Shown piece by piece: positions 1,052 to 18,006 of a stretch of 37,945 nucleotides of DNA. The translations under genes and the position numbers were made by a program. Under the pieces are notes generated by a model, which was not told the origin of the DNA, ran no database searches, and saw only the letters and a program-made list of their open reading frames with translations. Where the stretch lies: NCBI GenBank assembly GCA_021819585.1, contig JAKAQS010000008.1, positions 1 through 37,945 on the forward strand. The letters run 5' to 3'. The number at the start of each line of letters is the position of its first letter. The stretch's first letter is position 1. Origin of the DNA: Acidobacteriota bacterium (GTDB lineage: Bacteria; Acidobacteriota; Terriglobia; Terriglobales; Acidobacteriaceae).

Positions 1052-2071
1052 ATGACAGTTCAAGCTACAAAGTATGAATCGCTGGATACGGATAAGTTCC
1101 TTCAACTGCACCTATCGTTTGGGCCGTCCCGCATCCTGATGGCGGCGCTGCAACTTAGGGTGTTTTCACACATTGCCGCCGGGAACAACTCCGCGCCGGC
1201 CATCGCTAGCGCCGCCGGAGCGTCGGAGCGCGGCATGCGAATGTTGCTGGATGCGCTCGTGCCGCTCGATCTGCTGGGCAAGACAGACGGAACTTATATC
1301 CTTCCCCCCGCTTCCCAGCGGTACCTGGTCCACGAGAGCCCGGATTACCTGGGCTATATGCTGGAGAACGAGGCTCTGTGGGCTGCCTGGAGTGACTTGA
1401 CCGAATGCGTCCGCACCGGCAGGCCCTCCGCGGCGGTCAACCGGCGGGAGATAGCCGAGGAGTTCTTTCCCGTCCTGGTGCGTGGCCTGCACGTCACCCA
1501 TCGCGAGCCGGCGCGCCGCCTGGCGCAAGCTCTCGAGGCAGGCAACTCCGGCCGCGGCCTCCAGGTGCTCGATGTGGCGTGCGGCTCCGGCGTGTGGGGT
1601 ATCGCCATGGCGGAGGCGAACCCTCATGCTCGCGTCACCGCGCTGGACTTTCCCAAGGTGCTGGAGCTGACTCGGCAGTTCCTGCATCGGCACGGCGTCG
1701 AGAGCCAGTATGACTTTCTCTCCGGCGACCTGAAGGAGGTGGATCTGGGGGAGAGCCGATTCGATCTGGCGCTGCTGGGCAATATCGTTCACTCGGAGGG
1801 CGAGCGCTCCTCGCGCGACCTCTTGGCTAGGCTGCATCGGGCGCTCCGTCCCGGCGGCCGCGTCGCCATCCTGGACATGGTCCCCAACGATGACCGCACC
1901 GGGCCATTCTTTCCGCTGATGTTCGCGCTGAACATGCTGGTCAATACCGACGAAGGCGCCACCTATACGCTGGCCGAGTACTCCCAGTGGTTGATCGAGG
2001 CGGGCTTTGCCCGGATCGAAACTGCGGATCTCGGCCTGCACTCGCCGGTCATCGTCGCGGCCAAAGAGTAG
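1052..2071 (+). CDS. SAM-dependent O-methyltransferase (Methyltransf_2 / acetylserotonin O-methyltransferase-like, N-terminal dimerisation domain)
   Basis: ATG at 1052 preceded by AGAGGAGGAA; motif I 'VLDVACGSGVWGIAMA', 'ALDFPKVLE', 'LHRALRPGGRVAILDMV'. Confidence 0.9.
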   Translation: MTVQATKYESLDTDKFLQLHLSFGPSRILMAALQLRVFSHIAAGNNSAPAIASAAGASERGMRMLLDALVPLDLLGKTDGTYILPPASQRYLVHESPDYLGYMLENEALWAAWSDLTECVRTGRPSAAVNRREIAEEFFPVLVRGLHVTHREPARRLAQALEAGNSGRGLQVLDVACGSGVWGIAMAEANPHARVTALDFPKVLELTRQFLHRHGVESQYDFLSGDLKEVDLGESRFDLALLGNIVHSEGERSSRDLLARLHRALRPGGRVAILDMVPNDDRTGPFFPLMFALNMLVNTDEGATYTLAEYSQWLIEAGFARIETADLGLHSPVIVAAKE

Positions 2072-2201
2072 AAGTGATCGCAGCAGTCGCCGGTTCACAA
2101 CGTTGCTCAAAGCCGCGGTAGCACGGCCCTGCCGCATCTGTCGGCCGCAAGGGGCCGCGGGTGTTTCCTGCGCAACTGGACCGAACCGTGAGCGTTGCAA
2201 A

Positions 2202-2246
2202 CCGCGGCGTCCCCTGGGAGGGAGGCGCCGCGGTGAGGGCGATTTT
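2202..2246. terminator. Terminator-like hairpin between convergent genes
   Basis: CCGCGGCG (2202-2209) / CGCCGCGG (2226-2233) perfect arms, followed shortly by a GATTTTT run; lies between methyltransferase and DoxX 3' ends. Confidence 0.45.
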
Positions 2247-2291
2247 TCACGCTTCGCCGCCCGGTCGATCTGCCGTGGGCAGGCTCTGTGC

Positions 2292-2663
2292 TTACCTGGC
2301 GAAGATGCCGGCAAAGGACTCTCGCACACTCCAGGCCGTCAGCAGCCACAGAAGCACCACCAGGGTCGCCAGCGGGAGCCCGCTGGGAGCCATGAAGGCA
2401 TGGAAGAGCACGATGTTGACGATCACCGGCCCCAGCAGCACCAGCGCCAGCGGAACGTAGCGCCCCACCAGCAAAAGGATCGCGCCCAGCAACTGCAACA
2501 GGAAGATGACCACCAGCAGGTGGGAGACAAACAGCGCGCCCATGTACTGGCCTGCGACTCCCGCAGGCGGAGGCATGGGAATGAAGTGCAGAAACCCATT
2601 GGCTCCGAAGATCAGAAAGATCAGGCCCAAGAGATACCGCGCAATCAAAGAGGCAACTTTCAT
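2292..2663 (-). CDS. DoxX family membrane protein
   Basis: 123 aa, four hydrophobic segments, N-terminal 'ARYLLGLIFLIFGANGFLHFIPMP'. Confidence 0.8.
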   Translation of the reverse strand: MKVASLIARYLLGLIFLIFGANGFLHFIPMPPPAGVAGQYMGALFVSHLLVVIFLLQLLGAILLLVGRYVPLALVLLGPVIVNIVLFHAFMAPSGLPLATLVVLLWLLTAWSVRESFAGIFAR

Positions 2664-2762
2664 ACTTCATCTCCTTTCGACAGCAAATTTCCTTGGCCCG
2701 CTTCCGTCAGGAAGTTTGCCCCTTCCGGAGTCCTCCTGTCCATGGCCTTTTTCATCGGTGGC

Positions 2763-3392
2763 TCAAACCCGTACCGCGGCCAGAGTTGCAACCGCCTTCT
2801 CATGGGGCAGCAGAAACTCTGCCCGGTCCGCCCCGTAGTTCAGCGCCGAAGCGCCGCCGGCGGTATGGAAGGCCACGTCCGTGATTCCAATGAACCCAAA
2901 CAACGTCTTCAGATAGGGCTCAATAAAGTTCAGAGACTCCAACCCCGATCCGGGACCATACTTCCCGCCCGTAGCCACCAGAAGCGTCGCCTTCTTGCCC
3001 TCGAGCAGCCCCTTCGGTACTCCGTCTACATAGGCAAAGCTCCTTCCGACCCGCACCACTTGGTCGATCCAGAGCTTGAGCACGCTGGGAATATTGAAGT
3101 TATGCATCGAGACGCCAATGGCCAACTCATCGGCCGTCTCTACCTCCGCGAGCAGTTCATCGGACTTGGCCAGCAGAGCCTCCTGCTCCGGGCTCCGCGC
3201 CTCCTCCGGCGTATAGGCTGCCGCAACCCACTCGGCGGTGATCGCCGTCAGCCCGCTCCGAGTCAGATCGCGGGTGATTACCCTTCCTCCCGGGTGCGAC
3301 TTCTTCCAGTTCTCCACGTAGGTCCGGGACAGGTGCCGCGAGACCGACGAAGCCCCCATCGGGCTCGAATCGATATGAAGCAGGGTTGCCAT
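2763..3392 (-). CDS. azoR: FMN-dependent NADH-azoreductase
   Basis: 'LLHIDSSPMGASSVSRHLSRTYVENW', 'MHNFNIPSVLKLWIDQVVRVGRSFAY', 'LLVATGGKYGPGSGLESLNFIEPYLKTLFGFIGI' typical AzoR. Confidence 0.93.
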   Translation of the reverse strand: MATLLHIDSSPMGASSVSRHLSRTYVENWKKSHPGGRVITRDLTRSGLTAITAEWVAAAYTPEEARSPEQEALLAKSDELLAEVETADELAIGVSMHNFNIPSVLKLWIDQVVRVGRSFAYVDGVPKGLLEGKKATLLVATGGKYGPGSGLESLNFIEPYLKTLFGFIGITDVAFHTAGGASALNYGADRAEFLLPHEKAVATLAAVRV

Positions 3393-3423
3393 GATGAATC
3401 TCCTTTACAACAGTTGATGTCTA

Positions 3424-3446
3424 AACAACAGTTGTTGATTCAACAA
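3424..3446. promoter_or_regulatory. Overlapping palindromes in azoR/tetR divergent intergenic region, candidate TetR operator
   Basis: AACAAC-A-GTTGTT (3424-3436) and TTGTTGA-T-TCAACAA (3432-3446), both perfect odd-length inverted repeats. Confidence 0.6.
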
Positions 3447-3509
3447 AAACACAACACTTGTCGTTTAGTCAACAATTGGTGTTAAATATCTTTGAGTAAC
3501 CTGCCGTCC

Positions 3510-4231: not shown

Positions 4232-5539
4232 TCAAGTGGTGAGTTTGGCCAGTGCTGTGAGCAGCCGCGTATAAGGAATGCCCTCTGCGTAAGTCTTCAG
4301 GATCAAGGAGCGCATCCAGGGGGTGCGCATGGCCTTGAAGCCTCGCTCTGGCCGGCTGTGGAACGCCCGGGCGGCGCGCATCGAAAAAGCCAAGGTCCGT
4401 TGCAGGGGACGGAGATGGCGAGCATACGCTGCGGCGATCTCGCTGGATCGCTCTCCCTCAGGCAACTCCAGGATGGCGGCGGCGGCGGCCTGCCCGCTGA
4501 CGATGGCGGAGTGAATCCCTTCTCCGGTGAGAGGATCCACCAGGCCGGCGGCGTCTCCGGTGAGCAGGACGCGGCCGTGCGGGATATAGTTGTGGCCACC
4601 CATTCCCAGTTGCTGGCCGGTGATGTGGGTCAGAGCGGTCACGCCCAGCTTCTGTTGCGCGTAGCTCCGCAGCAGCTCGCGGGTGATCTGCTTCAGCGTT
4701 TTGCTGCCGATGCCATGGGCTGAAGCGAAGGCGCCCACGCCGATGTTGACGTGGTCGGCTTTGGGGAAGAGCCAGCCGTAGCCGCCGCGCAGGGGAGCGA
4801 AGTCAAAGACCAGATCCTGGGGAGACCTGCCGCCGGGCAACGGCTCCGGCAGAGCGCTGTAGGGAACGGTGGCTTCCAGAGCGAAGCCGTCCTGCTCAAA
4901 GCCGGTGATGGACCGGCCGGCTGCGGAGAGGTGTTGGCCGGCCAGGCGGCGAGTCTGGCCGTTGGCTCCGTCGGCGCCGATCAGGATGGGCGCGCGCAAG
5001 GTATCGATGCGAGTCTCCCGGTCGTGTGTGCTCTCGACGTCCACCTCAACGAACTCCGGGCCTTCGCGCAGCGCGGCAATGCGGAGAATCTTGCGCAGAG
5101 AGATGGCTCCGCCGTTGCGCGCTGAAGCCAGGGTCTGCCGCAGGCAAAAGGCGTCGAAACGTTCCCGGACGGCCATGGCGCAGATGGGACTGGATCTGCT
5201 CAGCCGGATCGGGCTGGTAGAACCGGCGTCCGGCGGGAGGGCCGCCCCGGTTTGGTCCGCAGGTTTCTGAACCATTGCCTGCTCTGGGCTGCCGGCGGGT
5301 TCTACGTTTCGCGCTGGTTCCAGGACGATCTCCGAGCAGACGCGCTCAATCACCGGGTCCACAGAGTAGCGCAGCGCCTTCAGGGTCTTCTGGGTGAGCC
5401 CGCAGGCGCAGGGCTTGTGACGCGGAAAGCTGCTCTTGTCCATCAGCAGGACGTGTTTGCCGGCGCCGGCCAGGTCATAGCCGGCGGCGCAGCCGGCGGG
5501 CCCAGCTCCAACGATCAGGATCTCGAAGTCAAGGGTCAT
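4232..5539 (-). CDS. Geranylgeranyl reductase family protein / FAD-dependent oxidoreductase
   Basis: 'ILIVGAGPAGCAAGYDLAGAGKHVLLMDKSSFPRHKPCACGLT', 'LIGADGANGQTRR', 'GRVLLTGDAAGLVDPLTGEGIHSAIVSGQAAA'. Confidence 0.9.
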   Translation of the reverse strand: MTLDFEILIVGAGPAGCAAGYDLAGAGKHVLLMDKSSFPRHKPCACGLTQKTLKALRYSVDPVIERVCSEIVLEPARNVEPAGSPEQAMVQKPADQTGAALPPDAGSTSPIRLSRSSPICAMAVRERFDAFCLRQTLASARNGGAISLRKILRIAALREGPEFVEVDVESTHDRETRIDTLRAPILIGADGANGQTRRLAGQHLSAAGRSITGFEQDGFALEATVPYSALPEPLPGGRSPQDLVFDFAPLRGGYGWLFPKADHVNIGVGAFASAHGIGSKTLKQITRELLRSYAQQKLGVTALTHITGQQLGMGGHNYIPHGRVLLTGDAAGLVDPLTGEGIHSAIVSGQAAAAAILELPEGERSSEIAAAYARHLRPLQRTLAFSMRAARAFHSRPERGFKAMRTPWMRSLILKTYAEGIPYTRLLTALAKLTT

Positions 5540-5900: not shown

Positions 5901-5935
5901 GGAGCCTGACAGGACCCCAACTCGTGGAGGTGTCC

Positions 5936-7633
5936 GTGGGCGGCGAGCAGCACCAAGCAAAGGTCATCCTGGCGTCGCTGCTGTTTTCTTGTGCGGCGCC
6001 ATGTCCGGCCCTGCATGCCCAGAGCGCCGCCGATCCACTGGATGCTCTGCGCCATGGGACTTTGGTCGTATGGTACGTCGGCAACTCGGTTCGCTCCCAG
6101 GAGATGGCGATTCAGGCGGTTTCGGCGCTAAACGACTTCACGCCGTTGAACTACACAGAACATAGCGTGGCGAACTTCGGGCAGAACGCCTCCACCTTCG
6201 GCCAGAATGCAGCCGGCTTCGGGGTGGATGCTGACAGCAGCAGCATCAGTGTGCCGTCCATTCCGGCCAACCGGGATGCCACCACAGCCACACCGAACGG
6301 CATCGGGTACAAACAGCAGGACAGCAGCACCTTCGGCCAGAACGAGGCCGGCTATGGGGGTAACGCCGGCAGCTACGGCATGGAGAGCAGCAGCTATGGC
6401 CAGAACAGCGCAGGCTACGGACAGACCTCGGGAAGCTATGGCACAGAGGCGAGCAACGTGGGCCAGAACGCCTCCAGCTTCGCGGAACCGCAGAATCAGG
6501 CAACAGCGCTGAGCAGTGTCAGTCAGTCCCTGCAGATGTCGAGCAGTCCAGAGGAGGAAAGGATAGAGCAGAGATTGCGCCAGGCGTATCCGGATCTGCA
6601 GACGAGTTTCTATGCCGTCTCGCCCAGCGACTTGCAGTCGATGCTCACCGGTTCCAGAGGGGCCAAGGAGTATCCAGATGTGCTGGTGGGAACCTTGCCG
6701 GCAGCGTGGTGGGGAGGGATGGGCAGCAACTTTGGACTGGTGTCGCTGCAACCCGCGGTGTTTTATCCCAACGGCGTCCTCAACCATCCGGAGAGCGCCG
6801 CCGAGGTTGCCATTTTGACCGATGCGGCGCACATGCAGACGGCGCGGGCCTTCGCCTTGTGGATGAGCGAGCCTTTTTCCGACTGCCCGGGTTGCGTGGC
6901 GAAGAGTCTCTCCGGCCCGGCGGCGGCAGCGGCGGCGGTGGCCCGGAAGGCCATCGAAAGGCTGGTAAACGGAGTGCCGCTGGGCAGCGTTGCAGATCCG
7001 CGCATGGCCCGCAACAGCTCCCAGGGGCAGCGGCGTTTGCTGGCCACGATCGGCGACGCTGCGAGCGTGAACGGGGGGATGCAGGTGCAGGTGGAGCAAG
7101 CCTCCGTGCATGGCAGCCTGGCGGCGATTGCGCTGCGCGTGCTGATCTCTACGCCGGGAATCTTTGGTGTCGTGCATCCCTTGGTGGTGCTTCGCCAGTC
7201 CCAACGAGGGGCCAAGCCTGGACCCTGGAAGGTATTGCAACTCACGTTGGACCTTCCCCAGTATGAACAGACCCAGGAGCGCCAGGTGCTGATGGTGAGC
7301 GATCCTCCCACCTGGGCCGAACAGCGGGGGGGAGTGAAGGGGGTCTCCCTGCTGGGGCCGATGGATGGGCAAGACGTGGTCCAGATGCCGCAACTGCAGT
7401 GGCAGAATCGCGGCGGCGCGGGGCTGGAGGTGGTGGAGTGGCAGAAGGGCGAGGGCCAGGGTTGGTCGGAGTCGCGTCTCTACTTTGTGGAGGATCAGAA
7501 TCCAACCCTGCGCATGCAGGCGATGGCCAAGTTCGCCGCCCAGAACGGGCGCTATCGCTGGCGGCTGTGGAGCGTGGGAGCTCATGGGGAGATGAAGATC
7601 AGTTCCTGGAGCTCCTTTTTTCTGGAGCAATGA
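5936..7633 (+). CDS. Secreted protein with [FY]GQN heptapeptide repeats, solute-binding-protein-like segments and a C-terminal FnIII-like segment; function unknown
   Basis: GTG at 5936 with GGAGG five nt upstream; signal peptide 'KVILASLLFSCAAPCPALHAQ'; repeats FGQNAST FGQNAAG and FGQNEAG YGGNAGS YGMESSS YGQNSAG YGQTSGS YGTEASN VGQNASS; C-term '...PQLQWQ...GRYRWRLWSVGAHGEMKISSWSSFF'. Confidence 0.8.
   Translation: MGGEQHQAKVILASLLFSCAAPCPALHAQSAADPLDALRHGTLVVWYVGNSVRSQEMAIQAVSALNDFTPLNYTEHSVANFGQNASTFGQNAAGFGVDADSSSISVPSIPANRDATTATPNGIGYKQQDSSTFGQNEAGYGGNAGSYGMESSSYGQNSAGYGQTSGSYGTEASNVGQNASSFAEPQNQATALSSVSQSLQMSSSPEEERIEQRLRQAYPDLQTSFYAVSPSDLQSMLTGSRGAKEYPDVLVGTLPAAWWGGMGSNFGLVSLQPAVFYPNGVLNHPESAAEVAILTDAAHMQTARAFALWMSEPFSDCPGCVAKSLSGPAAAAAAVARKAIERLVNGVPLGSVADPRMARNSSQGQRRLLATIGDAASVNGGMQVQVEQASVHGSLAAIALRVLISTPGIFGVVHPLVVLRQSQRGAKPGPWKVLQLTLDLPQYEQTQERQVLMVSDPPTWAEQRGGVKGVSLLGPMDGQDVVQMPQLQWQNRGGAGLEVVEWQKGEGQGWSESRLYFVEDQNPTLRMQAMAKFAAQNGRYRWRLWSVGAHGEMKISSWSSFFLEQ
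6176..6481 (+). repeat. In-frame heptapeptide tandem repeat region (two blocks, 6176-6238 and 6332-6481, separated by 31 codons)
   Basis: Aromatic-Gly recurring every 7 residues; read directly from translation. Confidence 0.85.
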
Positions 7634-7703
7634 TGTTCTTGCCCGCGCCTCCGGCAGTCCTGGATTGGCGCCGGGACGGGCTTTGATCCGCTATGCTCGA
7701 AGG

Positions 7704-8606
7704 GTGAGTCTTGAGGCCCAGGACGATTCGTTTCCTCAACTGCTTTCCGTGCAGGATCTTGGCATCGCTTTCTCGGGGCAACCAGCCGTGCGTGGGGTGT
7801 GTTTTGGGATCGCGCCGGGGGAGACCCTGGGGCTGGTGGGCGAGTCCGGCTCTGGAAAATCGGCTACCGCGCTGGCGCTTCTCCGGCTGTTGCCTCCGAG
7901 CGCGGCCGCCGGCGGCAGCGTCCGCTTGGCGCTGAGCGCCGATGCCGCGGACGATCTGCTGCAACTCCCTGAGGAGGCCATGCGACGGCATCGTGGGGCG
8001 TCGATCGCGATGATCTTTCAGGAGCCGATGACGGCCCTCAATCCCGTGATGACGGTCGGGCGGCAGATCGGTGAGGCGCTGCAGGCCCATGCTCCGGGAA
8101 GATCCTTGTTCGGCAGAGGCGGAATCACTCGCCGGCAGCTTCGCGAGCGCGTGCTGGAGGCGATGCGTGAGGTCGCGCTGGCCGACCCCGAGCGGCGCAT
8201 CGACGACTATCCGCATCAGTTCTCCGGCGGTCAGCGCCAGCGCATCATGATTGCCATGGCGCTGATCAACAAACCGCGCCTGTTGATCGCCGATGAGCCG
8301 ACCACAGCTCTGGATGTCACCGTGCAGGCGCAGATTCTGGATCTGCTGCGAGGACTCAAACGTGAGCATCATCTTTCCATGCTCTTCATCTCTCACGATC
8401 TTGCCGTGGTCGCTCAGATTGCTGACCGGATTGCCGTGATGCGCCATGGAGAGATCGTCGAGCAGGGCGGAACGAAACAGGTGTTGACTCGTCCCCGGCA
8501 TGAGTACACGCGTCAGCTTCTGGCTTCCGCTCCCACCATGACCACCGCTCGCGATCATCCGCTGGCGACGATCATTCGCCCAGCCTCTTCGCAGAGGGTT
8601 TCTTGA
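7704..8606 (+). CDS. ABC transporter ATP-binding protein, OppD/DppD family
   Basis: Walker A '[12 protein letters not shown]', '[20 protein letters not shown]', signature '[15 protein letters not shown]', Walker B '[20 protein letters not shown]'; start uncertain (ORF from TTG 7665). Confidence 0.9.
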
Positions 8607-8767
8607 ATGGCGGCCGGGATGGCGGCTGGGCGTACCTCCGCGGCATGGAGCCGCGCCCTGGGGAGGGTTGCAGCAGGCACGTCAAAGGTTGTGGATCTCC
8701 TGTGGGGCTGCGTTCGGTTGTACACCTATAGAAGAGCACTCACGGCCGCTCGGCCGGCTGGTAGTCT

Positions 8768-9547
8768 ATGCGCGCCCTGGTAATCTCTGATATTCATGGC
8801 AATCTGCATGCCCTGGAGGCGGTGCTCCAGGCCGCGCGGAGTTGCAGCGGGCGAGGATTCGATGAGCTTTGGAACCTTGGCGATGCGGTGGGCTACGGGG
8901 CGCGACCCAATGAGGTCATTGACCTGCTTCGTTCCACCGAGGCCAAGCGCATCCTGCATGTGCGCGGCAACCATGATCGTGTCTGCTGCGGCCTGAGCAG
9001 TTCGCAAGGATTCAACCCAGTGGCTGCTCTGGCCGCAGGCTGGACCCGGCAGCATCTGCGCCCGGAGAACCGGGAGTGGCTGCGGGCTCTGCCCATGGGG
9101 CCGATTCAGGCAAGCAACAGGGCGCTCTGCGCGCATGGCTCGCCTTTGCATGAGGACCAGTACATCGCGTCGATGCGAGATGCCTGGATTCCTCTGCAGC
9201 GTATGCCGCTCGAGCTTGCATTCTTTGGCCATACGCACCTGCAGGGAGCTTTCTCCCGCCGTGGCGAGTTTTGGTCAGAAGACCATCCTGAATATCCATC
9301 GGATGCCAGGGAACAGTTGCAGCAGTTCACCCTCCCGGTGCCGAGCGGCGCGCGCTACCTGATCAATCCAGGCGGAGTGGGGCAACCGCGCGATGGCGAC
9401 TGGAGAGCGGCGTTTGCCATCTACGACCAGAGCAACGAACAGGTCACCTTCTTCCGCACTCCTTACGACCTCGCAGCGGCCCAGGCGGCGATCCGGGAGG
9501 CCGGCCTGCCGGAGCGGCTGGCCTCTCGCCTGAGTGCCGGCAAATAG
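8768..9547 (+). CDS. Metallophosphoesterase family protein (YfcE/calcineurin-like)
   Basis: 'ALVISDIHGNLHALEAVL', 'LWNLGDAVGYG', 'HVRGNHDR', 'FFGHTH', 'LINPGGVGQPRDGD'. Confidence 0.9.
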   Translation: MRALVISDIHGNLHALEAVLQAARSCSGRGFDELWNLGDAVGYGARPNEVIDLLRSTEAKRILHVRGNHDRVCCGLSSSQGFNPVAALAAGWTRQHLRPENREWLRALPMGPIQASNRALCAHGSPLHEDQYIASMRDAWIPLQRMPLELAFFGHTHLQGAFSRRGEFWSEDHPEYPSDAREQLQQFTLPVPSGARYLINPGGVGQPRDGDWRAAFAIYDQSNEQVTFFRTPYDLAAAQAAIREAGLPERLASRLSAGK

Positions 9548-13797: not shown

Positions 13798-16700
13798 CTA
13801 GAACGTGATGTGCAAGTCCATGGACATCATGCGCTGGCTGCCAATGGTGCCCGTCACCGAGCCCAACTGGGCGTTGTTGTTCGCACAACCGCTGGGAGTA
13901 ACCTCTGTGGCGGCCGAGCAGCCGTAGACGCCCAACGGAAGCGTCAAGGGGACTGTGGTAGCCCGGCCCGAAGTGCCGCCCGTGTAGGGCTTCTCGTACA
14001 GGTTGTCCCCTGCGGAGCCGCCTCCGGCAGGACCCGCTCCTGTAACCGTCGATCCCTGGTCCGCCTGGCTGGTGACGATCAAGCCGTAGTCTTCATAGCC
14101 GTTCTCACAGTCAAAGGCGGCCCCGGTATTTTGCGGGCCGGTGAGATAGCCGTTGGCACACGAGCCGTGCTGCCCGATGGTCGCCGAGTCCTGCGGTACG
14201 TCCATGCTGGTGGTGTTGGTGATGTTATAGACATTGAAGGAGTACAGCATATCGACTCTTCCTTTGATATGAAACTCCTTGCGCAGGGAGAGATCCAGGC
14301 TGCGCTGCGCTCCCTGGCGGAAGATGTTGCGCTGATCTCCAGGAGCGAAGGCAGTTTCATAGACGTCGACTGGATCCGTTGGTGCGCCTGCGGAGGCTGG
14401 AGGGACTCCGCCCTGGCCCGGCGCCAGGTACTCCACCGCAATCTGAGTGGGATCGAGCGCCGGCATATACTCCCCGCCCACGCCGCGGTACCGGCCGGAG
14501 CGGCCCGTCAAGGCGGAGCGATGATTGGCGGGATCGGCAATCGAGAGGATTGGATTGATGAGGGTGGGGAAGTAGCCGAGCTGCGCGCTGGCCACCGCTC
14601 CGTTGTACTCGTAGAGAGAGTATGGCTCGCCGCTTTGCAGAACGGTCATGCCGGTCAGGGTCCAGTCATTGGTCAGAATCGCCATCCGCGAGTGCTCCGG
14701 GGCGGCGTTGGGAAGCACAACCTGGAAGTTCGCAGTGAAGTCATGGGTGCGGTCGAAGTCCGACGATGCGTAGGACTGCTTCAGATCGTTGGGATTGTCT
14801 CCGGTAAAGAACAGGCCGATATCGCTCTGTTCATCCAGCGCGTGGCTCCACGTATAGCTGGCGCCGACCTGGAAGGAATGCGACAATCGCTTCTCCAGAT
14901 GAGTGTTCAGCGCATTGTAGGAGGAGTTGCCCACCGTCTTGTACATCGCGGAGTAGGGGCTGTAGCCGACGTAAGGAGCGCGGAAGTCGGAGTTTCCGCC
15001 ATCGTAGGTGGACCATGGCTCAGAGGCGATAGGGCATGGGTCACCGTACGCTCCGCAGCTCGTATTTCCGTTTGTCACGTCATAGCCGTAGCTGTAAATC
15101 TCTCCGCTGGAGTGCGCATCCTTGCCGAGAATCATCGCCGGGCTGCCCGGGGTCGCCACTTGCGGCATATTGAACGGAAGTGGAATCACTGAATGCCTGC
15201 CCAGATTGCCGGCGTAGCCGATTGTGACCGCCAGATCATTCCTCGGCTGCCACTGGATGTTCAGCGTGTAGTTCATCGTATAGGGCAGAACATTGTTCTT
15301 GTCATAGGATCCGATGTATAGAGGGGTCTCGGAGCACTCATTTTCGAAGTTGCCTACGCCGCCGCAGTTGAGGCCGAACGCAGCGGTGCTGCCCGTCATG
15401 TAGTTGAGCTGATTCTGCAGCGCCGTTGTCTCGACCGCAGGATTCTCGCTGGGCGCGGGAGGCGTGGTGCTGCTGGTGAGCAGGGCAGCTGAACCCAGAG
15501 GGTTCGCGATCGACGTCCCGGTGCCGGTCACGGCGCTCACCAGCGGAGCCTCCTGCGTCACGCCGAAGGGTCCACCCACTCCACCACCCGCCGGCGGGGA
15601 GAGATAGGCGAACAGTTCGCCGCGGTCGTAATAGATACCCGCTCCACCGTTGATCACGAACTTGCCCCCGTCCCGCTTGGGTGACCAGGCGAAGCCGACA
15701 CGTGGGGAGATGCCCCACTGTCGCCCGGTGAGGGTGGAGGCGCTGGTTCCCGGCGTGCGCGCCGTTGGATTGTTGCCTGCTACCACCAGGCCGTCGTTGA
15801 TCACCGTGAAACCACTGCCGCCCACCGCGGGATCCGTGCCGGTCACGTCATACGTGGTCGGATCGAAGTTGAAAAAGTTGCCATACTTCTCCGTCATGCC
15901 GCCGTGATAATCCCAGCGTACGCCCGCGGTGATGCTCAGGTTGGAGAGCGCTTGCCACTTGTCCTGAAGGTAGAAGGCGCCCTCATTGGTGCGGTAGTAA
16001 CGATCGGCGAGATTCTTTCCGTTGGAAGAGAGTGTCTCCAGCACGCTGGATGAATGCACGTTTCCTTCCAGAAGCTGCGTGAGGTCGGTGACGTCCTCCG
16101 TAATCAGGCCGTTGCGGTTGTTTTCAATGTTCAATTGCGTATAGCTGTATCCGCCGCCAACCATCAGGGTGTGGTTGCCCAGGATGAGGATCGCGTTGCT
16201 CGACGGATTGATCCGGTTCTGGTAATAGCCGGTGTTCACAAAGCTGCTGTTGGGGCCCACGCGGAGGTTGGGCGTACCCGACTCGTTCACGGCGAATCTC
16301 GATATGTTGAAGCTGGGAAGAAGGCCAGGCTGACCCGGGACATCGTCGGTGATGCCGAAGGTAGGACCGGCATTTGCGCCCGTCGCATTGTTGACCACCG
16401 TCTGGTTGTAGGTGGTATAGGTGCCCATGCGATCCCAGCCGACGCGCTGCTCCCAGTTCAGCCGCGGCCCCAGTTGGATGGTGTTATCCAGCGCGGCCAC
16501 CTGAGCATGGTTCTCTGTGACGGAGGGAAATCCTCCCACCTCTGAGGTAAAGCCGTAGGGCATGGTGACCGGGTCAGTCTGATAGTAGTATTTGAAGCTC
16601 AACCGGTCGGTTTGGGTAACGTCGTAGTCCAGGTCGCCCGTCGCCTGATCTCCTTTGAACAACGAAGTGCCTTGTAGCGTGACGTTGGGAACATCATAAG

Positions 16701-18006
16701 CGAAGGGCGCCGAGGTTTGAGCGTAGGGAATCAGATACTGCCCGTTGGGCAGGGTGGCGTTGAACAGCGCCTGAGCGACCCCGGAGGGATCCAGGGTAAT
16801 CGCGTTTGTTTTGCCGGAGTATCCCTGGTAAAGCGCCTGCAGACACGCGCTGGTGCGGCCGTTGGGGCAGTTGGTGGTATTGAACGCCTGGGGCACGGTC
16901 ATCTGGGCGAGGCCGGTGGCCTGATCCGAGTCATAAAGATGCTGATAGGCCACGAAGAAGAAGAGCTTGTTCTTGATTACCGGCCCGCCCAATGTGCCGC
17001 CAAGGGTCCAGCGATGGAGCAGAGGATTGCGCAAAGACATGGGAAAGGCTCCCACGCCCTGCTCCGCGAGAACGGCATCCTGATTGAAGAAGAACGGAGC
17101 CGAGTTCAGCGCGCTGTTGGAGTAGTTGCTGTACACCTGACCGTGATAGTGATTGGTGCCGGTCTGGGTGTTGACGTCGATCTGCGCTCCACTGGTGGCG
17201 CCCTCCTCTGAGTCGTACATGGAGGCATTGACACGCAACTCCTGAATGAACTCCGGCGGAGGAGCAGGCAGGCTGTTTCCGTTCGAACCATACACCGAAC
17301 TGCCTTCGGTGATTGCTCCGCCGACAGTGTTACCCTCGCCGATGTTGAAGTTGTAGCGCTGCGAGGTGTCGCTGCTGGAGCTCTTGCCGTTGAACAGGTT
17401 GTCAGCGTCCACGCCGTTCACCTGGAAAGTGTTGGATGTGTCGCGCTGTCCGTTGGCCCAGATGGGCTGATTCCCCAAACCGGCGTTGACGCCTTCGCCG
17501 CTCAGAAGCTCGGCGTTCACGCCCGGCGAAAGGATCGCCAGTTGCGTAAAGCTGCCCGTAGCCAGCGGCGTCAAGGCAATCTGCGCCTTATCCAGCGTGT
17601 AACCGTTGGTGGTATCGGTCGCATTCAGCAGGGGATTGGCCGTCACCGTCACCGCGGTTGCAACGTGTCCCACCTTCAGCTTCACCAGCAGGGTCTTGGC
17701 GGTAGCCTCCTGGACCTGGATGCCGGTCAAGTCAGTCGTGTCAAAGCCATCATGCATCGTGGTCACCTCGTAGGTGCCCACCGGCAGGTCGAAGATCTGG
17801 AAGTATCCATTCGCCTGAGTTTTGGTGGTACGGGTCACGCCGATGGCGTGGTCGGTCGCCGTCACCATGGAGCCCGGCACCGCTGCCCCCGAATCGTCCT
17901 CCACCGTTCCGTTCAAAGACCCAAGGGTCTGTTGCGCCTTCGCTACACCAACGCAGGCAAAGAGACCAACAAACAATGCCACTGCAAGAAGCTGAAGCTT
18001 TCGCAT
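13798..18006 (-). CDS. TonB-dependent receptor / carboxypeptidase regulatory-like domain protein (Oar-like)
   Basis: 1402 aa; signal peptide; 'GSLNGTVEDDSGAAVPGSMVTATDHAIGVTRTTKTQANGYFQIFDLPVGTYEVT'; plug-like region and C-terminal beta-barrel ending in 'QRMMSMDLHITF'. Confidence 0.9.
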   Translation of the reverse strand: MRKLQLLAVALFVGLFACVGVAKAQQTLGSLNGTVEDDSGAAVPGSMVTATDHAIGVTRTTKTQANGYFQIFDLPVGTYEVTTMHDGFDTTDLTGIQVQEATAKTLLVKLKVGHVATAVTVTANPLLNATDTTNGYTLDKAQIALTPLATGSFTQLAILSPGVNAELLSGEGVNAGLGNQPIWANGQRDTSNTFQVNGVDADNLFNGKSSSSDTSQRYNFNIGEGNTVGGAITEGSSVYGSNGNSLPAPPPEFIQELRVNASMYDSEEGATSGAQIDVNTQTGTNHYHGQVYSNYSNSALNSAPFFFNQDAVLAEQGVGAFPMSLRNPLLHRWTLGGTLGGPVIKNKLFFFVAYQHLYDSDQATGLAQMTVPQAFNTTNCPNGRTSACLQALYQGYSGKTNAITLDPSGVAQALFNATLPNGQYLIPYAQTSAPFAYDVPNVTLQGTSLFKGDQATGDLDYDVTQTDRLSFKYYYQTDPVTMPYGFTSEVGGFPSVTENHAQVAALDNTIQLGPRLNWEQRVGWDRMGTYTTYNQTVVNNATGANAGPTFGITDDVPGQPGLLPSFNISRFAVNESGTPNLRVGPNSSFVNTGYYQNRINPSSNAILILGNHTLMVGGGYSYTQLNIENNRNGLITEDVTDLTQLLEGNVHSSSVLETLSSNGKNLADRYYRTNEGAFYLQDKWQALSNLSITAGVRWDYHGGMTEKYGNFFNFDPTTYDVTGTDPAVGGSGFTVINDGLVVAGNNPTARTPGTSASTLTGRQWGISPRVGFAWSPKRDGGKFVINGGAGIYYDRGELFAYLSPPAGGGVGGPFGVTQEAPLVSAVTGTGTSIANPLGSAALLTSSTTPPAPSENPAVETTALQNQLNYMTGSTAAFGLNCGGVGNFENECSETPLYIGSYDKNNVLPYTMNYTLNIQWQPRNDLAVTIGYAGNLGRHSVIPLPFNMPQVATPGSPAMILGKDAHSSGEIYSYGYDVTNGNTSCGAYGDPCPIASEPWSTYDGGNSDFRAPYVGYSPYSAMYKTVGNSSYNALNTHLEKRLSHSFQVGASYTWSHALDEQSDIGLFFTGDNPNDLKQSYASSDFDRTHDFTANFQVVLPNAAPEHSRMAILTNDWTLTGMTVLQSGEPYSLYEYNGAVASAQLGYFPTLINPILSIADPANHRSALTGRSGRYRGVGGEYMPALDPTQIAVEYLAPGQGGVPPASAGAPTDPVDVYETAFAPGDQRNIFRQGAQRSLDLSLRKEFHIKGRVDMLYSFNVYNITNTTSMDVPQDSATIGQHGSCANGYLTGPQNTGAAFDCENGYEDYGLIVTSQADQGSTVTGAGPAGGGSAGDNLYEKPYTGGTSGRATTVPLTLPLGVYGCSAATEVTPSGCANNNAQLGSVTGTIGSQRMMSMDLHITF

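Follow-up and report, generated by a model that had tools for sequence, protein, structure and literature searches.

A heptapeptide array between β1 and α1 of a secreted, solute-binding-protein-like domain in Granulicella

In intact solute-binding proteins, the loop between β1 and α1 borders the ligand cleft. ATPases of the OppD/YejF type normally pair with family-5 binding proteins. Among repeat proteins, the YadA head repeat, the hexapeptide left-handed helix and the Lolium antifreeze β-roll share a hydrophobic-Gly-x-x-small pattern at short, strict spacing, and the heptad sequence of the RNA polymerase II C-terminal domain (CTD) self-associates. Here we describe a gene from Granulicella (Acidobacteriota), a lineage of soil bacteria, whose product carries an array of heptapeptides between β1 and α1 of a domain resembling solute-binding proteins. 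The window analysed is a stretch of 37,945 nucleotides of one contig, from an assembly in 347 contigs. Scans of Pfam and NCBIfam returned no family that covers the protein, and a literature search found no paper on such a repeat in Acidobacteria. The protein is an undescribed, lineage-restricted secreted family.

The secreted protein and its heptad array

The gene lies at 5936–7633 (+), with its stop codon at 7631–7633, and encodes 565 residues in a reading frame that is kept in orthologues. By inspection, the best start is the GTG at 5936, shortly 3′ of a GGAGG at about 5926–5930, and residues 1–28 (GGEQHQAKVILASLLFSCAAPCPALHAQ) form a signal peptide of the kind expected of SBP_bac_1 proteins, with cleavage expected near the junction of HAQ and SAADP; a signal peptide was likewise seen in the orthologues inspected. 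The C-terminal third comprises two domains that matched no known family. The first (7064–7276) resembles NTF2/DUF4440 at noise level only. The second (7277–7630) is Trp-rich and β-sandwich-like (PxLxWDNxGGAGLxVVEWQ, then YRWRVWSVG and a further W), with β-strands in a low-confidence AlphaFold2 model. Both NTF2/DUF4440 and CsgH were rejected as identities for these domains, as the matches were at noise level.

The original prediction of [FY]GQN heptads at 6176–6481 agrees exactly with the translation. Block 1 (6176–6238) holds three units, FGQNAST FGQNAAG FGVDADS, followed by a spacer of 31 residues, SSISVPSIPANRDATTATPNGIGYKQQDSST (6239–6331). Block 2 (6332–6478) holds seven, FGQNEAG YGGNAGS YGMESSS YGQNSAG YGQTSGS YGTEASN VGQNASS, and is directly followed by an F codon (6479–6481). 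The consensus over this region is mostly [FY]-G-Q-[TN]-[AS]-[SG]-[SN]. Residue identity at lag 7 is 0.28, compared with 0.095 ± 0.028 (maximum 0.26) in composition-preserving shuffles, none of 100,000 of which reached the observed value. At the DNA level, Tandem Repeats Finder detected only 2.3 copies (6175–6222, 77% matches), and the heptad repeat is thus a protein-level pattern. The inserted segment as delimited by profile, approximately 6134–6532, is larger than the interval first assigned to it.

In a set of 256 units, position 1 is occupied by F (39%), Y (32%) or V (12%), the remainder being mainly L, H, T, A or Q; it is thus aromatic in 71% of units and replaced in about 30%. Position 3 is Q in 52%, position 4 is T, N, A, S or D, position 5 is A or S in 87%, position 6 is S, G or A in 91%, and position 7 is S, N, T, D or G. 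Gly at position 2 was demanded by the unit parse; alignment A1 independently gives the Gly columns, held by the orthologues at 7-residue spacing, as nearly invariant. In two orthologues from outside the genus (L111 and L112) position 1 is frequently V, T, L or I, so that what stays constant is Gly together with the small residues rather than an aromatic. The predicted aromatic-Gly pair every seven residues therefore stands as regards the spacing, Gly 2 and A/S 5, and is too strict as regards the aromatic. Overall, arrays contain 18–27% G, 20–43% S+T, 8–21% Q+N and at most 10% charged residues, and no indels occur within blocks.

Within the genus, 24 further genomes matched (E ≤ 0.001), and orthologues occur in most of its genomes; the gene was not found in three genomes of the same genus (G017–G019), one of which, G019, is just 59% complete. 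In samples of the family, order and class, the only array-bearing relatives were three loci (L059, L111 and L112) in one other genus of the same family. The source genome, searched with the consensus array, yielded no further array protein, and the heptad repeat had no match among phage records. The contention that no named family has this arrangement holds for the repeat too: seven arrays searched against Pfam at E ≤ 10 gave only noise (best PF10145, E 0.037), and a profile of 13 real arrays matched nothing in the PDB at E ≤ 10.

All orthologues but one keep the 7-spaced array. Unit number, whose variation the original prediction had proposed to check, is usually between 7 and 11 with 10 the commonest; in L019 the array is reduced to two clear units. 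The 31-residue spacer is found in the clade of the source sequence and is absent from the array-bearing orthologues L015–L021. In the closer orthologue pairs, dN/dS in the array is 0.07–0.17, similar to the flanks, and synonymous divergence is likewise comparable. Units at the same position share 3.3–4.1 of six residues between species, as against 1.4–1.9 for units at other positions. Flank-like dN/dS and positional correspondence together indicate an ancient array maintained by purifying selection, and not recent slippage, as had been proposed from its varied synonymous codons. Three short orthologues (L022, L023 and L025) possess the array and half lobe and lack both C-terminal domains, which makes array plus half lobe the common core. 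A further orthologue (L024, G012:C220) has apparently lost the half lobe, the array and part of domain 1; its signal peptide leads straight into the C-terminal part and a stop is present, the result of either an internal deletion or an assembly fault.

Several other repeats were recorded in the course of these searches. An SLBB/Wza-like polysaccharide export protein, so named by its sequence and not via a family search, carries a heptad run, GAYGQQEGAYGQQGGAYGQQEGAYGQ (L028, G010:C433, 580–3357 (−)), which is probably independent of the family described here. Three other candidates were rejected as relatives of the array and attributed to chance or composition: L038 (G158:C45), whose genome belongs to the same family, has 7-bp DNA repeats (GTCGGGC and CCTGAAA-like) at 1643–1801 and 1953–2007; L060 (G241:C138) has a repeat of 21-bp period at about 1270–1780, directly 3′ of an RND-type transporter gene and readable without stops in several frames of both strands (for example as VQLDQKV and FWSSCTT heptads); and L061 contains a different repeat.

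A lobe I-like domain interrupted by the array

The sequences on either side of the array had been read as one domain split by it, reminiscent of periplasmic solute-binding proteins. With the full-length profile, the best PDB match was maltose-binding protein (E 4.2e-4), beginning after the array. With the array excised, the 32 PDB sequences that matched at E ≤ 1 were without exception solute-binding proteins, and the best matches, to UgpB/UspB (E 2.9e-4 to 4.5e-4), now ran from β1 on. SBP_bac_1 was matched by 5 of 25 members at full length (best 8.5e-4) and, after excision of the array, by 7 of 13 (best 1.1e-4). Searching with and without the repeat, a check put forward with the original prediction, thus favours a single interrupted domain.

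Against the source contig, the excised profile A3 aligned in two pieces. The first (6035–6133, profile 2–35) contains β1, GTLVVWYVG and the residues that follow, and this region aligns to GPIDFW of UgpB/UspB in the excised-profile PDB search. The second (6533–7057, profile 20–193) contains α1-β2-α2-β3, from EERIEQRLRQAYPDLQTSFYAVSPSDLQSML to PDVLVG. Against paralogues in G002 and G560, the same profile aligned in one piece each (profile 2–188 and 3–181), and in these two array-less proteins (L026 and L110) β1 runs directly into α1 with no interruption at the junction. The array therefore sits between β1 and α1 of a solute-binding-protein-like domain and is missing from the paralogues. In a tree computed without the array columns, the array-less pair is set apart with 100/100 support. 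Whether the array was gained in one branch or lost in the other depends on the root; gain is the simpler reading, since ordinary binding proteins have no such array.

The domain retains the lobe I order β1-α1-β2-α2-β3 (excised profile 9–102 against UgpB/UspB, E 3e-4), and the secondary structure of the low-confidence AlphaFold2 model agrees with this order. In the PDB profile matches, β3 is followed by no lobe II, then by a helix, ARAFALWMSEP, and a helical segment. Columns 240–262 of the profile correspond to residues 100–297 of the binding protein 2hfb, which implies that lobe II is essentially missing: where a second lobe would place some 190 residues between β3 and the late lobe I helix (about 197 in 2hfb), there are a few tens. 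No member scored reached the 26-bit Pfam gathering score of SBP_bac_1, the best being 19.8 and 18.5 bits, and the 565-residue source protein had no match. Comparison by hhalign with binding proteins of relatives gave no meaningful match; that set looked PstS-like (phosphate-binding), a different subfamily. The gap at lobe II and the Pfam scores below the cut-off define a half binding protein. A periplasmic binding protein with a surface insertion is therefore an overstatement: the insertion into a binding-protein-like domain is there, with only about one lobe left around it. The sequence comparisons strongly suggest a binding-protein derivative that is reduced and probably does not transport.

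Possible roles of the array

We propose that the family originated from an SBP_bac_1-like solute-binding protein, of the type of UgpB and MalE, which would have lost lobe II and acquired the two orphan domains at its C terminus. Members of the array-bearing branch also hold the array, usually of 7–11 heptapeptides, in the β1–α1 loop. Without lobe II, the protein would no longer perform ligand uptake by a two-lobe clamp; the remaining lobe may serve as a compact base from which the nearly uncharged, Gly/Ser/Thr/Asn-rich array projects as a repetitive arm. In the periplasm or at the cell surface, this arm could contact another macromolecule (a glycan, an envelope protein or another copy of the protein itself). 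Taken as a whole, this explanation seems to us evenly poised between right and wrong; within it, the likeliest function of the array is that of a conserved arm for contact or spacing.

The array might instead fold as a regular β-solenoid or β-roll, a rigid rod with sides of Y/F/V and Gly that offers a binding or adhesive surface. Its strict spacing without indels inside blocks and its [YFVL]-G-x-x-[AS] motif are consistent with such a fold, and units three apart are the most alike, a hint of a 21-residue coil. This super-period, with p = 0.0005 at first, weakened to p = 0.048 and 0.079 in two clades after a common permutation, in which all related sequences are shuffled together; it was not seen in L014 or L111, and 63-bp duplications are a possible source of it. 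AlphaFold2, run with five close sequences as the alignment in both cases, gave a mean pLDDT of 30.5 for the whole protein and 43.2 for the array alone, and neither model has strands in the array, which at this confidence carries little weight. The array profile is without a match in the PDB, and Pfam gave no YadA-head or hexapeptide match. The β-helical repeat of the original prediction is thus reduced to a weak super-period with no confident model behind it, and we regard the rod as unlikely, although it comes first among the alternatives. A more specific version, in which a new β-solenoid with three 7-residue sides per 21-residue coil and Gly corners, set in the cleft loop of a half binding protein, has converted a transporter subunit into a surface rod, is a long shot.

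A disordered Gly/Ser-rich linker or brush, flexible and of little importance in its exact sequence, is slightly less probable again. It accords with the composition, with the low AlphaFold2 confidence in the array and with the presence of the spacer in one clade and its absence from the other. Against it stand the positional conservation of units across species, a dN/dS nearly matching the low values of the folded flanks, and a 7-residue spacing maintained without indels.

Extracellular self-assembly, as a functional amyloid or by prion-like or FG-like condensation, is considerably more doubtful. It draws on the regular F/Y-G pairs among Q, N, S and T and on a match of the consensus array to the RNA polymerase II CTD heptads at 1e-7. 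This match vanishes with the profile of real arrays and reflects composition; we rejected homology to the CTD in favour of convergent composition. Replacement of the aromatic in about 30% of units and a modest Q+N content further weaken the prion-like reading, so that the amyloid or prion-like character first suggested from composition is not supported, and of the genes examined none was recognisable as a curli-type secretion gene.

The usual locus order is a divergent gene for a FAD-dependent, geranylgeranyl-reductase-like oxidoreductase (4232–5539 (−)), the heptad gene, an OppD-type ABC ATPase (7665–8606 (+)) and a calcineurin-like metallophosphoesterase (8768–9547 (+)). In L066 and L076 no ABC ATPase lies beside the heptad gene; the linkage is thus common and not obligatory. 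In L074 (G025, 6051–9182), about 3.1 kb separates the two genes. The window contains no cognate permease genes beside the heptad gene, and the three BPD_transp_1 permease matches of the genome are all on other contigs. Elsewhere on the source contig, an O-methyltransferase gene is followed by a frame of 492 residues (2007–3485 (+)) without Pfam or NCBIfam match, whose 3′ end contains an 18-bp DNA repeat (3407–3446), and 13798–18006 (−) encodes an outer-membrane β-barrel of 1,402 residues whose N-terminal domain is carboxypeptidase-regulatory-like (PF25183, PF13620).

A working ABC importer component, paired with the downstream ATPase and with the array shaping its ligand cleft, would fit the ATPase gene that directly follows in most loci and the similarity to lobe I, but is the least probable of these readings given the missing lobe II, an ATPase of the OppD/YejF type in a genome with a family-5 binding protein on another contig (G000:C5), and the two loci where the ATPase is not adjacent. 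The missing lobe II and the lack of an adjacent permease make a structural or binding role likelier than uptake.

Comparison with known systems

The family stands outside Pfam and NCBIfam and places a repeat array at the cleft loop of a solute-binding fold that it interrupts, with array-less paralogues as a natural comparison. If structured, the array would be a short-repeat architecture without a sequence match in the PDB; if disordered, it would be a low-complexity secreted segment whose sequence is strongly conserved. The protein, from one lineage of soil Acidobacteriota, is experimentally tractable.

With SBP_bac_1 proteins (PF01547; nearest UgpB/UspB, 6r1b and 4mfi, and maltose-binding protein, 8art) the heptad family shares secretion, the β1-α1-β2-α2-β3 order, a PD[VL] motif and a later helix resembling AxAFxxW. 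It differs in that lobe II is essentially absent, scores fall below the Pfam cut-off, the β1–α1 loop holds the array, two orphan domains form the C terminus and no permease genes were seen adjacent. With the RNA polymerase II CTD (YSPTSPS) the array has in common the period of seven, and Y1, T4, S5 and S7 match the consensus unit; unlike the CTD, it has no prolines, carries Gly at position 2 and belongs to a secreted bacterial protein. FG-repeat nucleoporins (PF13634, matched by one orthologue array only, at E 1.5) and FUS-like low-complexity domains likewise set FG or YG among S/T/Q/N-rich spacers, whereas the heptads keep strictly to a period of seven, tolerate replacement of their aromatics and are bacterial and secreted. 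To the YadA head, the hexapeptide helix and the Lolium β-roll the heptads are alike in pattern only, with no sequence match.
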